Assembly (NCBI RefSeq): GCF_000346615.1
Contig: NZ_ANNU01000019.1
Location: 62,001 to 126,000 of the forward strand
Origin: Nafulsella turpanensis ZLM-10
GTDB taxonomy: Bacteria > Bacteroidota > Bacteroidia > Cytophagales > Cyclobacteriaceae
Length of the DNA: 64,000 nucleotides
Direction of reading: 5' to 3'
Shown here: positions 40,066 to 47,108 of the stretch, one piece after another
Numbering within the stretch: the first letter of the stretch is position 1
Layout of the letters: each line of letters starts with the position of its first letter
Position numbers and translations under genes: made by a program
The notes under the pieces: generated by a model
Database searches by the model: none
Told to the model about the DNA's origin: nothing
The model's input: the letters and a program-made list of their open reading frames with translations, nothing else

Positions 40066-40147
40066 TGCGGATGGAGGGACTCGAACCCCCATGCCTCGCG
40101 GCGCTAGATCCTAAGTCTAGTGCGTCTACCAATTTCGCCACATCCGC
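40066..40147 (-). tRNA. tRNA-Leu (anticodon UAG)
   Basis: The minus strand folds as a tRNA. The acceptor strand GCGGATG (40147-40141) pairs with CATCCGC, followed by discriminator A at 40066. The anticodon stem CTAGA/TCTAG encloses the loop CTTAGGA, giving anticodon TAG, which reads CUN leucine codons. The T-arm is GGGGG-TTCGAGT-CCCTC and the variable arm is long, as expected for a class II tRNA. CCA is not encoded. Confidence 0.95.
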
Positions 40148-44715: not shown

Positions 44716-44722
44716 TATTATC

Positions 44723-44754
44723 TTGTATTTTAGGTTAATATCACCTTACTTGGA
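44723..44754 (+). promoter_or_regulatory. Putative promoter of the asnA attenuator region
   Basis: TTG (44723-44725) and TACTTGGA (44747-44754, imperfect TAnnTTTG) are 21 bases apart, close to Bacteroidota spacing. Transcription would start shortly before the first Asn-rich leader frame at 44776. Confidence 0.35.
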
Positions 44755-44775
44755 TAATAGATAAAAAGACAGTAC

Positions 44776-44862
44776 ATGCAGCATCTTTTCAGTAATAACC
44801 AGAATCTTAATAGTGGCCTGAATAAAAATCAGGGCAGAGGAAGGTTATTGTTGATATCTTGA
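44776..44862 (+). CDS. Asn-rich leader peptide 1 of the asnA attenuator
   Basis: A 28-codon frame, ATG at 44776 and TGA at 44860-44862, starting MQHLFSNNQNLNSGLNKNQ. Asn codons are at positions 7, 8, 10, 12, 16 and 18 (44794-44829), i.e. 6 of 28. A terminator hairpin follows 25 bases after the stop and asnA is the next real gene. No protein function is expected; the act of translating Asn codons would be the sensor. This is inferred from codon content, position and the hairpin. Confidence 0.75.
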   Translation: MQHLFSNNQNLNSGLNKNQGRGRLLLIS

Positions 44863-44926
44863 TGGTGCACGCTCACAAAAGAATAACAAAGCCTTCCTGA
44901 AGAAAACAGGGAGGCTTTTTTAGTTT
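44838..44926 (+). promoter_or_regulatory. Attenuator 1: antiterminator segment and terminator hairpin
   Basis: The terminator stem is AAAGCCTTCCTG (44888-44899) with CAGGGAGGCTTT (44907-44918), 12 bp with one G-U pair, followed by T-rich sequence. AGGAAGG (44838-44844) is exactly complementary to the left arm core CCTTCCT (44892-44898), extendable by a G-U and an A-U pair, so it can form an antiterminator. AGGAAGG starts 9 bases after the last Asn codon and lies within the leader frame. A ribosome at the Asn codons in the first half would leave it free; one at the stop would have disrupted it. Confidence 0.75.
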
Positions 44927-44963
44927 CAGGAAAAAAGCAATAGCACAAATAGCCAACAACGAA

Positions 44964-45014
44964 ATGGGCCGCTCAATTAACTTCAACAATGGCAATAATA
45001 ATCCTCCCCCATAG
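44964..45014 (+). CDS. Asn-rich leader peptide 2 of the asnA attenuator
   Basis: A 16-codon frame MGRSINFNNGNNNPPP with TAG at 45012-45014. Six of 16 codons are Asn, three of them consecutive just before a Pro triplet. It starts 38 bases after the first terminator's T-tract and is followed by a second terminator, then asnA. I see no separate promoter between the first terminator and this frame, so the two control points appear to act in series. The proline run could itself slow the ribosome. Confidence 0.75.
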   Translation: MGRSINFNNGNNNPPP

Positions 45015-45078
45015 GGTGAGCCGGCCTTGTATTGTCATACAAAAGCCCTCTCACCTAAGTGGTGGAGGGCTTTTTTTT
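45015..45078 (+). promoter_or_regulatory. Attenuator 2: antiterminator segment and terminator hairpin
   Basis: The terminator has AAAAGCCCTC-T-CACC (45041-45055) pairing with GGTG-GAGGGC-TTTT (45061-45074) with one bulged T, followed by eight T. GGTGAG (45015-45020), directly after the leader stop codon, is complementary to CTCACC (45050-45055) on the left arm, so it can compete with the terminator. It would be covered by a ribosome at the stop codon and free when the ribosome stalls earlier. Confidence 0.7.
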
Positions 45079-45102
45079 ATTCTTAAACCTTAAAATTTTT
45101 AA

Positions 45103-46152
45103 ATGATGAAAGTTCAATCCTTCATTCCCCTGCAGCAGACAAATCAACCAGGCATGAGTCCGCTGGAAACCGAAAAAGCCATTGAAATGATTAAGACCTG
45201 TTTTGCCACTGAGCTTGCCCGCCACCTGAAGCTTTACAAAGTAAGTGCGCCCATGCTCGTAAGGAGAGGCACAGGTATTAACGACGATCTGAATGGCACC
45301 GAACGCCCTGTTCATTTTCCGGCCCCTTCCCTCGGGGGAGCTACCGTGGAGGTCGTGCATTCCCTTGCCAAGTGGAAGAGGGTGAAGGTAAGTCAGCTGC
45401 AGCTCCTTCCGGGCGAAGGTATTTATACTGATATGCGCGCCATCAGGGCCGATGAGGAGCTGAGCCCTATTCACTCCCTTTACGTAGACCAGTGGGACTG
45501 GGAAAAGTGTATCCGTCCGGAAGAACGTAGCCTTGACACTTTAAAAGAAACCGTAAAAAGTATTTATGCTGCCATAAAGGTTACGGAGGAAAAGTTAAGC
45601 ATAGCGCTTCCTGACCTACAGCCTGTTCTGCCGGAGGAAATTGTCTTTATCCATTCAGAGGATTTGCAAAGCCAGTATCCCGAACTAAGCCCGAAAGAGC
45701 GGGAAGACCAAATAGCCCGTACTTTTGGTGCGGTCTTTATTATTGGAATTGGAGGAGCACTGGGAGAAGGAGAGCCGCACGATGGTCGCGCCCCTGATTA
45801 TGACGACTGGAGTACTCCAACGGAAGGAGCCTATAAAGGACTCAACGGCGATATTCTGGTCTGGAACCCGGTATTGCGTCGTGCCTTTGAACTGTCGTCT
45901 ATGGGAATCCGGGTCGATGCTGCAGCCCTAGAGCGGCAGCTTGCCATCGCTGCCTGTAAAGAGCGGACACAGCTGCCTTTTCATGCTGCCCTGCTCGCCG
46001 GTAAATTTTCTCAAACAATGGGGGGTGGCATTGGGCAGTCCAGGCTTTGCATGTTTTTGCTCCGGAAAGGGCATATAGGAGAAGTGCAGGCAAGCCTTTG
46101 GCCGGAGGAAATAGGTGCCGGACTCGAAGAACAGGGAATTAGTTTGCTGTAA
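45103..46152 (+). CDS. asnA: Aspartate-ammonia ligase (asparagine synthetase A)
   Basis: AsnA makes asparagine from aspartate, ammonia and ATP; it is related to class II aminoacyl-tRNA synthetases. The 349-residue protein (E. coli AsnA is 330) has 'FATELARHLKLYKVSAPMLV', 'GINDDLNGTERPVHF', 'AEVVHSLAKWKR'-type text ('VEVVHSLAKWKRVKV'), 'GEGIYTDMRAIRADEELSPIH', 'YVDQWDWEKCI' and the C-terminal 'GGGIGQSRLCMFLLRKGHIGE' region with the class II motif 3 arginine. The start ATG at 45103 is 25 bases after the second terminator. Expression is likely controlled by two Asn-codon attenuators upstream. Confidence 0.96.
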   Translation: MMKVQSFIPLQQTNQPGMSPLETEKAIEMIKTCFATELARHLKLYKVSAPMLVRRGTGINDDLNGTERPVHFPAPSLGGATVEVVHSLAKWKRVKVSQLQLLPGEGIYTDMRAIRADEELSPIHSLYVDQWDWEKCIRPEERSLDTLKETVKSIYAAIKVTEEKLSIALPDLQPVLPEEIVFIHSEDLQSQYPELSPKEREDQIARTFGAVFIIGIGGALGEGEPHDGRAPDYDDWSTPTEGAYKGLNGDILVWNPVLRRAFELSSMGIRVDAAALERQLAIAACKERTQLPFHAALLAGKFSQTMGGGIGQSRLCMFLLRKGHIGEVQASLWPEEIGAGLEEQGISLL

Positions 46153-46191: not shown

Positions 46192-46281
46192 ATGAATCCA
46201 CAGACAGTACATTATTATTACTATTATCATATGAACCAGCCCATCGGTTTCGGTAATGGTGATGTATTGCTTACGAATTAA
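46192..46281 (+). CDS. Tyr-rich leader peptide of the phenylalanine hydroxylase attenuator
   Basis: A 29-codon frame beginning MNPQTVHYYYYYHMNQ. Codons 8-12 (46213-46227) are five consecutive Tyr codons (TAT TAT TAC TAT TAT), flanked by His. It ends with TAA at 46279-46281, 23 bases before a terminator hairpin, and the next gene encodes the enzyme that makes tyrosine from phenylalanine. This is the classic arrangement of a ribosome-stalling attenuator sensing charged tRNA-Tyr. It is inferred from sequence only. Confidence 0.78.
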   Translation: MNPQTVHYYYYYHMNQPIGFGNGDVLLTN

Positions 46282-46341
46282 GAAACAGTAAGAATTTTAT
46301 ACAGAAGCCCAGTTCCGGAACCCCGGAGCCGGGCTTTTTTC
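46246..46341 (+). promoter_or_regulatory. Tyr attenuator: candidate antiterminator and terminator hairpin
   Basis: The terminator stem runs from AAGCCC (46305-46310) through GTTCCGG (46312-46318), closes a 4-base loop, and returns as CCGGAGC (46323-46329) and GGGCTT (46331-46336), with one mismatch and a T-tract. GGTTTCGG (46246-46253) can pair over 8 bp with CCGGAACC (46315-46322), which would break the upper stem. That segment lies 18 bases after the last Tyr codon. Confidence 0.65.
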
Positions 46342-46364: not shown

Positions 46365-47108
46365 ATGACCACAATGGAACAGAAATACGCGAATTATACA
46401 AAAGAAGATTTTCAGGTATGGGAAGTACTCTTTAACCGCCAGATGGAGAATCTTCCTGGCAGGGCAACTGATGAGTTTTTGCAGGGCATCGACCGTATTA
46501 ACTTTACCGCCGGCAAAATACCCGATTTCAGCGAAACCAATCCGCTACTGAAGAGCATTACCGGCTGGGAACTGGCAGTCGTGCCGGGTATTGTCGACGA
46601 TGCAATCTTCTTTCAATTGATGGCGGATTGCAAATTCCCTGCCAGCACCTGGCTCCGGAAAATGAGTGAGCTTGACTACCTGGAAGAGCCGGATATGTTT
46701 CATGATGTTTTTGCCCATGTGCCTCTGCTTACGAACCAGGCTTTTGTAGACTTTCTGCAGGAGCTGAGTAAAATAGGACTTGAATATATCGATAATAAAT
46801 GGGCCATAGAACTGCTTTCGCGTATCTACTGGTTTACTGTAGAGTTTGGTCTTATTCGTGAGGCAGAAGGACTCAGAATCTATGGAGCCGGTATTCTTTC
46901 ATCGGCCGGTGAAACTGTTTTCTGCCTGAGTGATAAACCAAAACGCTTTGAGTACAATGTGGAGCAGATTCTGAATACGCCTTACCGGAAGGATACGTTC
47001 CAGGACAGGTACTTCATCATCGAATCCTACGAGCAGCTGTACCAGTCTCTGCCGGAAATAAAGGAACAAATTGCCATATTAAGCCAGAAAGAACCTGTAA
47101 CAGTATAA
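46365..47108 (+). CDS. phhA: Phenylalanine 4-monooxygenase (phenylalanine hydroxylase)
   Basis: A 247-residue aromatic amino acid hydroxylase that converts phenylalanine to tyrosine with tetrahydropterin and O2. The non-haem iron ligands are H113 and H118 in 'DMFHDVFAHVPLL' and E160 in 'IYWFTVEFGLIRE', followed by 'RIYGAGILSSAGE'. It lacks a regulatory ACT domain, as bacterial members do. The ATG at 46365 was chosen; one at 46374 is also in frame. The Tyr-codon leader upstream suggests the enzyme is made for tyrosine supply when tyrosine is short rather than for phenylalanine breakdown. Confidence 0.93.
   Translation: MTTMEQKYANYTKEDFQVWEVLFNRQMENLPGRATDEFLQGIDRINFTAGKIPDFSETNPLLKSITGWELAVVPGIVDDAIFFQLMADCKFPASTWLRKMSELDYLEEPDMFHDVFAHVPLLTNQAFVDFLQELSKIGLEYIDNKWAIELLSRIYWFTVEFGLIREAEGLRIYGAGILSSAGETVFCLSDKPKRFEYNVEQILNTPYRKDTFQDRYFIIESYEQLYQSLPEIKEQIAILSQKEPVTV

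Follow-up and report, generated by a model that had tools for sequence, protein, structure and literature searches.

Why should two short asparagine-rich open reading frames (ORFs), each followed by its own terminator, stand in series upstream of asnA in Nafulsella turpanensis ZLM-10? The question arises from a 64,000-nucleotide stretch of contig NZ_ANNU01000019.1, which is called the window below and whose coordinates are used throughout. We consider it highly likely that the two units are classical leader-peptide transcription attenuators in series, both reporting the charging of tRNA-Asn to asnA, and each of the two gates is very probably a real Asn attenuator. An earlier note on this DNA had described two frames, one of 28 and the other of 16 codons, that each contain six Asn codons and have their own terminator, and the window matched this description base for base. 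The features of the region are as follows.

44776..44862, + strand: leader 1 ORF, MQHLFSNNQNLNSGLNKNQGRGRLLLIS followed by a stop codon; 28 codons, 6 Asn (residues 7, 8, 10, 12, 16, and 18)
44888..44918, + strand: terminator 1; 12-bp stem and 7-nt loop, then a T-run (from sequence scan and fold)
44964..45014, + strand: leader 2 ORF, MGRSINFNNGNNNPPP followed by a stop codon; 16 codons, 6 Asn and then Pro-Pro-Pro-stop
45042..45073, + strand: terminator 2 stem-loop, then a T-run (from the fold of 44964-45078)
45103..46152, + strand: asnA, which encodes asparagine synthetase A (aspartate--ammonia ligase; 349 aa) and is proposed here to be under this regulation

The asnA product scored 411.5 bits against NCBIfam TIGR00669 (cut-off, 292.8), confirming the identity that had been assigned to it from the letters alone. 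The complementary segments noted earlier were also found at their respective terminators: AGGAAGG (44838-44844) with CCTTCCT (44892-44898) in gate 1 and GGTGAG (45015-45020) with CTCACC (45050-45055) in gate 2. Terminator 2 alone had a folding energy of -22.4 kcal/mol; a simple hairpin scan gave just its inner part (45051-45065).

Intergenic DNA that is AT-rich often contains AAT runs, and the Asn-rich ORFs and hairpins might on that ground be a coincidence beside ordinary terminators; an RNA model of ours (R1, described below) that yields many weak matches in other genomes points the same way. When 44716-45102 was subjected to 3000 dinucleotide shuffles, however, a leader and terminator pair appeared in none. 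At least one ATG ORF with at least six Asn codons was found in 15 of these shuffles, two such ORFs in 0, and at least one terminator-like hairpin in 84. We also scanned both strands of the 64 kb for ATG ORFs that span 10-45 codons, are enriched in a single amino acid, and have a hairpin nearby; both leaders were among the 10 candidates, and another was terminator 1 read on the opposite strand. Together with the shuffles, the conservation, covariation, and geometry seen in related loci make coincidence scarcely credible, and in our view the conservation data already refute it.

We next examined asnA loci elsewhere. From a named genome collection, in which at least 592 stretches matched, the best 80 were taken, and AsnA-bearing genomes were collected from overlapping sets: relatives (11/59), order (38/390), family (47/295), class (23/390), and the families of two later genomes (1/36 and 5/46); 18 AsnA-bearing genomes of the order and family sets lie outside the locus count. 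The resulting 165 loci gave 161 distinct ones after removal of four duplicates (L104, L117, L119, and L163), with less than 300 nt of upstream DNA at two (L176 and L091). A unit was defined as an ATG ORF of 10-42 codons, four or more of them Asn and with an Asn fraction of 18% or higher, together with a hairpin and T-run starting between 10 nt before and 80 nt after the ORF end. This fixed rule detected a unit at 37 loci (32 single and 5 tandem). Inspection by eye moved four loci to tandem, namely L003, L157, and L158, in which the rule had missed a bulged second hairpin, and L091, in which the contig begins within the first leader; it also added L099, whose Asn fraction is under the cut, as a single. 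The earlier note had proposed to look for conserved Asn-rich frames and terminators at the asnA genes of relatives, and the final tally gave an Asn-rich leader with a terminator at 38 of the 161 distinct loci, 29 single and 9 tandem.

Single units were found at 26 of the 27 Hymenobacteraceae-like loci (all except L096), comprising 21/22 of family f13 and 5/5 of named Hymenobacter or Solirubrum, with one f13 genome, G331, outside the count. A single unit was also present in a genome of the same genus as the window, G001, and at two further loci (L191 and L194). The tandem loci are the window; G030, G843, and G873, all three genomes seen of another genus in the window's family; the metagenome-assembled genome VK_bin-2399 (L091); G718 of family f41; and G682, G1032, and G1026 of family f54. 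Two other f54 AsnA loci are without the unit, L239 (with a stop inside the frame) and L240.

R1 was also used as a genome scanner at a threshold of E 0.01. It matched 264/395 class genomes, which is implausibly many, and unread matches were not used as evidence. Twenty R1 loci were looked at (11 from the class scan, 7 from the window's own genome, and 2 further in G718), and 14 of them had no interesting amino-acid-rich leader. In the own genome, the known site was the sole standout, with 74 bits versus 32.9 for the next match.

We then analyzed the structure of gate 1, for which folding identified the following elements.

44789..44800, + strand: segment 1 of attenuator 1, UCAGUAAUAACC; the anti-antiterminator's 5' arm, with two Asn codons in it
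44814..44835, + strand: inner hairpin A, formed around leader 1's late Asn codons (from fold)
44838..44853, + strand: 5' strand of antiterminator 1 (AGGAAGGUU.UUGUUG), overlapping segment 2 (44843-44854)

In the minimum-energy fold, segment 1 formed a 12-bp helix with segment 2, and the anti-antiterminator of leader 1 is built partly from Asn codons. In the fold of the whole leader 1 (-48.8 kcal/mol, z -4.77), this helix and terminator 1 coexist. When the RNA before 44830 was omitted and transcription was stopped at 44900, the antiterminator 5' strand instead paired with 44884-44898, giving 15 bp (-21.1 kcal/mol, z -2.69; 1/200 shuffles equally stable); the left arm of terminator 1 doubles as the 3' strand of this antiterminator.

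These elements were compared in alignment A2, which consists of 29 complete first-leader units to whose leaders leader 1 is homologous. On the named 18-pair structure, 25 cells were changed on both sides, compared with 10.4 in shuffles, which ignore relatedness. The double changes were concentrated in the segment 1:segment 2 helix (22/25), as illustrated by column pair 17:83 (GC 10, AU 6, CG 6, and GU 6), and sliding the structure by 1-3 columns lowered the covariation scores. The antiterminator core GGAAGGCU:AGCCUUCC was paired in 99.6% of 232 cells and is nearly invariant; it hardly varies, and its support is therefore conservation, not covariation. Terminator 1 was paired in 94% of cells, and inner hairpin A had partial support (A2 helices 2-3, with 82.1% and 56.2% of cells paired). 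Regulation of asnA by a ligand-binding RNA, such as a T-box, with the ORFs incidental, is a further explanation, and Asn T-boxes do regulate Asn genes in Firmicutes. In an Rfam scan that included the T-box, neither this region of the window nor six related loci gave a match at gathering score, the single match in the window being a tRNA at 40066-40147, and we hold this explanation to be extremely improbable.

The effect of ribosome position was then modeled. The RNA downstream of the ribosome was folded codon by codon. The 3' edge of the ribosome was set 12 nt downstream of the A-site codon's first base, and transcription was halted immediately upstream of the terminator's right arm; antitermination was scored as pairing of the left arm with any upstream RNA. 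Across 31 first leaders, antitermination was predicted at 0.5 or above for 229 of 237 Asn codons, and the eight exceptions were residues at the far end of the leaders. The stop codon fell below 0.5, on the terminator side, in 31/31, and likewise in four further first leaders (0.01 to 0.47). In the nine second leaders, all 49 Asn codons were on the predicted antitermination side, and the value fell below 0.5 at Pro-Pro or the next codon, two to four codons past the last Asn; the first Pro codon itself was still at 0.5 or above in 6/9. In these predicted structures, both gates combine clustered cognate codons and an intrinsic terminator with a mutually exclusive antiterminator, and the codons are placed as in an attenuator. 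Stalling at Asn codons had been proposed earlier to cause antitermination at both gates; the alternative structures, the modeled geometry, and the covariation all agree with this.

From the parts, their conservation, and the fold geometry, we infer ribosome stalling and read-through as follows. When Asn is scarce, the ribosome would stall on the Asn codons of leader 1 and leave GGAAGG..UUGUUG free; pairing of this strand with terminator 1's left arm would let RNA polymerase continue. When Asn is ample, a ribosome that has moved past the Asn codons would mask the antiterminator strand, and terminator 1 would form. In gate 2, a stall on the Asn codons of leader 2 would free GGGUGAG to pair with CUCACC, and passage of the ribosome under ample Asn would block this pairing. 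Under this scheme, asnA would be transcribed solely when both gates are open; since both must open, background would multiply down and the response would steepen.

The elements of the second gate are listed here.

45003..45011, + strand: Pro-Pro-Pro codons CCT CCC CCA
45004-45010 (CTCCCCC), opposite 45014-45020 (GGGTGAG): segment 1 of attenuator 2 (pairing estimate)
45014..45032, + strand: segment 2, the 5' strand of antiterminator 2 (GGGUGAG, GGC, UUGUAU)

The window RNA from the stop codon of leader 2 to 45056 folded into a long hairpin in which 45014-45032 pairs with 45037-45056 (-18.4 kcal/mol, z -4.28; 0/200 shuffles equally stable). This antiterminator helix is retained with a changed sequence in L091 (AGGCA.GGC:GCC.UGCCU). 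The small CTCCCCC:GGGTGAG hairpin is a candidate anti-antiterminator in the window, and its folding strength differs across the nine second leaders.

Pro-Pro follows the Asn codons in 9/9 second leaders, in which this part reads NNNPPP-stop (window), DNSPPKG (G030), NNNPPPQG-stop, NSPPTR-stop, NTPP-stop, NKSPP-stop, NYATPPGGD-stop, NNNPPPEEGK-stop, and NYNPP-stop. In 4/9 it stands directly before the stop codon. No Pro-Pro was found in any of 35 complete first leaders or in the two leaders of the single units L191 and L194. Different proline codons are used (CCT, CCC, CCA, and CCG), and the CC-rich Pro codons also paired with segment 2, with means of 0.24-0.73 across the second leaders; their role may therefore lie in the RNA, in the peptide, or in both.

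Pro-Pro is a known pausing motif, or brake (PMC8129111, PMC5021804). As we understand PMC8129111, Pro-Pro put at the His codon positions of the his leader behaves as a stall would and raises expression. Unlike in that test, Pro-Pro here lies at or just past the switch, so that a pause should favor termination. The discussion of PMC7246954 cites stalling at termination in E. coli that is caused by a C-terminal proline; in the assay of that study itself, proline was without effect on expression, and species dependence was suggested. The conserved Pro-Pro raises the alternative that gate 2 senses proline charging, elongation factor P (EF-P) activity, or Pro-Pro nascent-chain arrest, instead of or besides Asn, much as the Pro-codon-rich mgtP ORF of Salmonella mgtCBR senses low proline (PMC3641672). 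The presence of the motif in every second leader despite varied codons and its reputation as a brake speak for such sensing. Against it, four to seven Asn codons precede Pro-Pro in every case, pairing of the Pro codons with segment 2 means that an RNA role could suffice, and a modeled stall at Pro-Pro tends toward termination, the opposite of mgtP, although this bias is tempered by the first Pro codon remaining at 0.5 or above in six leaders. On balance we regard such sensing as unlikely.

In the attenuator scheme that we favor, a ribosome leaving the Asn codons of leader 2 would meet Pro-Pro at or next to the antiterminator-terminator switch, and slowing there would keep it on segment 2, making termination firmer when Asn is ample. 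We suggest, tentatively and at somewhat less than even likelihood, that gate 2 is a composite, in which Asn opens the gate and a Pro-Pro brake at the switch enforces termination, and that the two differing gates form an AND gate that has been kept or reassembled in four AsnA lineages.

We then considered whether a single gate might do the regulatory work, with terminator 1 serving mainly as the terminator of purA beside a decayed leader and gate 2 controlling asnA, or the reverse. The purA gene (TIGR00184) ends 60 nt upstream of the start of leader 1, and the same-genus relative G001 retains gate 1 alone, both of which would fit with this view. However, gate 1 has kept its Asn codons, covarying helix, and antiterminator; the gate-1 unit precedes asnA in Hymenobacteraceae-like loci that have no purA match in the upstream DNA examined, and also in the f41 and f54 genomes; and both gates are retained at nine loci. 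By tblastn over ~1.5-2.5 kb of upstream DNA for most of 141 loci, purA was detected at just 5 (the window, G001, G030, G843, and G873), and the unit is therefore associated with asnA, not with purA. Regulation by a single gate is thus improbable to us.

On an AsnA tree of 160 rows, built by a quick method with SH-aLRT only and without the short protein L178, the tandem label required four changes among labeled rows, all being forced by starred branches; rows without any leader are excluded from this count, and the long rows L091, L158, and L239 are unsure in position. G001 nests inside the AsnA clade of the window, and gate 2 has therefore likely been lost there.

The earlier note had named a promoter between terminator 2 and asnA as a refuting case. 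Matches to TAnnTTTG/TAnnTTG were present within 100 nt upstream of leader 1 in 7/8 tandem loci, and none was found in the two spacers further on, from terminator 1 to leader 2 and from terminator 2 to asnA (0/8), leaving an internal promoter without motif support in these loci; the scan left out L091 (cut contig) and the stretch from leader 2 to terminator 2 of the non-window loci. The window has a further match inside leader 1 at 44855. Among the A2 rows, just 6/29 had a match within 60 nt of leader 1. A sigma-70 scan is ill-suited to Bacteroidota promoters.

Several observations weigh against two serial Asn attenuators. The unit is absent at 123/161 asnA loci, AsnA itself occurs in just 23/390 class genomes, and the one other same-genus genome seen, G001, has gate 1 alone. 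The own genome has four Asn_synthase (PF00733) matches, and asnA may not be the sole route to Asn in this organism. In A2, further pair types were no higher than in shuffles (16 vs 15.7), and the double changes were scored against shuffles blind to relatedness with 26/29 rows Hymenobacteraceae-like. The early Asn codons of L099 (G066) are replaced by Ser (AGC) with segment 1:segment 2 pairing retained, and the second leader of G030 (L003) has no in-frame stop before terminator 2 (1/9). Some modeled stop-codon values are marginal (0.46 and 0.47). In the equilibrium model, the untranslated leader favors the antiterminator too (27/31 first and 5/5 second leaders tested; the window behaved likewise). 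Termination as the default without translation is not shown by these models, despite the covarying segment 1:segment 2 helix of gate 1, and co-transcriptional folding may depart from the equilibrium fold of untranslated leaders.

Two of these loci are also of interest in themselves. In L099, constraint on RNA structure is separated from constraint on the codons. The missing stop in L003 is either a real loss of frame or a sequence error.

Other candidate attenuators were seen in the window and in related genomes. At 46192-46340, a Tyr-rich leader, MNPQTVHYYYYYHMNQPIGFGNGDVLLTN, and a terminator lie directly upstream of a phenylalanine 4-monooxygenase gene (46365-47108; TIGR01267). Phenylalanine 4-monooxygenase would make Tyr, so that this element is likely to be a Tyr attenuator. 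In G030, G843, and G873 a Tyr-containing leader with a hairpin also precedes the homologous gene, and a similar leader and hairpin were found downstream of asnA in G001. At L181 (G780), L182 (G718), and L212 (G553), tandem Phe/Tyr-rich leaders with their own terminator-like hairpins precede a prephenate-dehydratase-like gene, whose best match in L182 is NF008865, under cut-off. A match to a gene of this type was obtained in 78 genomes, and of the 30 such loci read, 14 had a Phe/Tyr-rich leader with a hairpin after it. Same-signal tandem attenuators may be a recurring design in Bacteroidota, pheA included. Also seen were a Cys-containing leader, MKNINLYSALSIMCSITCFCCNHSKGPLLYLYR, and a terminator before a gene that by eye resembles serine acetyltransferase in L179 (G718 C209), a possible Cys attenuator, and a Thr/Ile-rich leader beginning MTINNTTIITIITTG with a terminator before a gene that by eye resembles aspartokinase in L134 (G707) and L140 (G686), an arrangement recalling the logic of thrL.

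If our proposal is correct, the asnA region holds the first Asn-specific leader-peptide attenuator within the literature searched; none was found described in the open-licence PubMed Central literature, with supplements and subscription papers outside this scope. It would also be a two-gate design for one signal that can be compared with relatives naturally having one gate, the one-gate form being present in named Hymenobacter strains, and would permit a clean test of whether series gating gives a lower background or a steeper response. Tight coupling of transcription and translation in Bacteroidota would be implied, and Pro-Pro pausing would be employed to favor termination.

The classical leader-peptide attenuators are those of E. 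coli trp, his, phe, thr, leu, and ilv. Shared with them are a short ORF rich in codons for the end product, an intrinsic terminator, a mutually exclusive antiterminator, a putative anti-antiterminator helix, and predicted masking that depends on ribosome position. The present system differs in its amino acid and gene (Asn and asnA), in having two complete units in series for one signal, in the Pro-Pro that second leaders conserve downstream of their Asn codons, and in its occurrence in Bacteroidota. It differs also in that no Shine-Dalgarno sequence was apparent by eye before either leader of the window; Bacteroidota mostly lack such signals.

Within the phylum, clues of leader-peptide attenuation before amino-acid biosynthesis operons have been reported in Flavobacterium psychrophilum (PMC9723704), and long 5' untranslated regions with short ORFs recalling leader peptides in Bacteroides thetaiotaomicron (PMC7366714). 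The phylum is what these cases have in common with ours; the passages concerned contain no asnA case, tandem case, or structural model, and "asparagine" and "asnA" occur 0 times in the main texts of the two papers (PMC9723704, PMC7366714). According to a 2010 survey, leader-peptide systems had until that time been described from Proteobacteria and Actinobacteria; the survey itself contributed a His leader from Firmicutes (PMC2965389).

The closest arrangement is that of Salmonella mgtCBR, in which two short ORFs with attenuators likewise share one leader and the second carries Pro codons; its authors termed these tandem attenuators a singular example (PMC3641672). In mgtCBR, by contrast, the two ORFs respond to different signals, ATP and proline, which act independently and additively, and its stem-loops are unlike intrinsic terminators (PMC3641672), whereas both terminators here look intrinsic and both leaders are Asn-rich. 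The Pro-Pro of leader 2 leaves room for a second signal of the mgtCBR type. Tandem riboswitches, such as those of Bacillus clausii metE, share the serial intrinsic terminators before one gene and are without a translated leader (PMC3641672). The asnA system is of a known kind, and its amino acid, Asn, its same-signal layout in series, and the Pro-Pro of its second gate are, to us, new.
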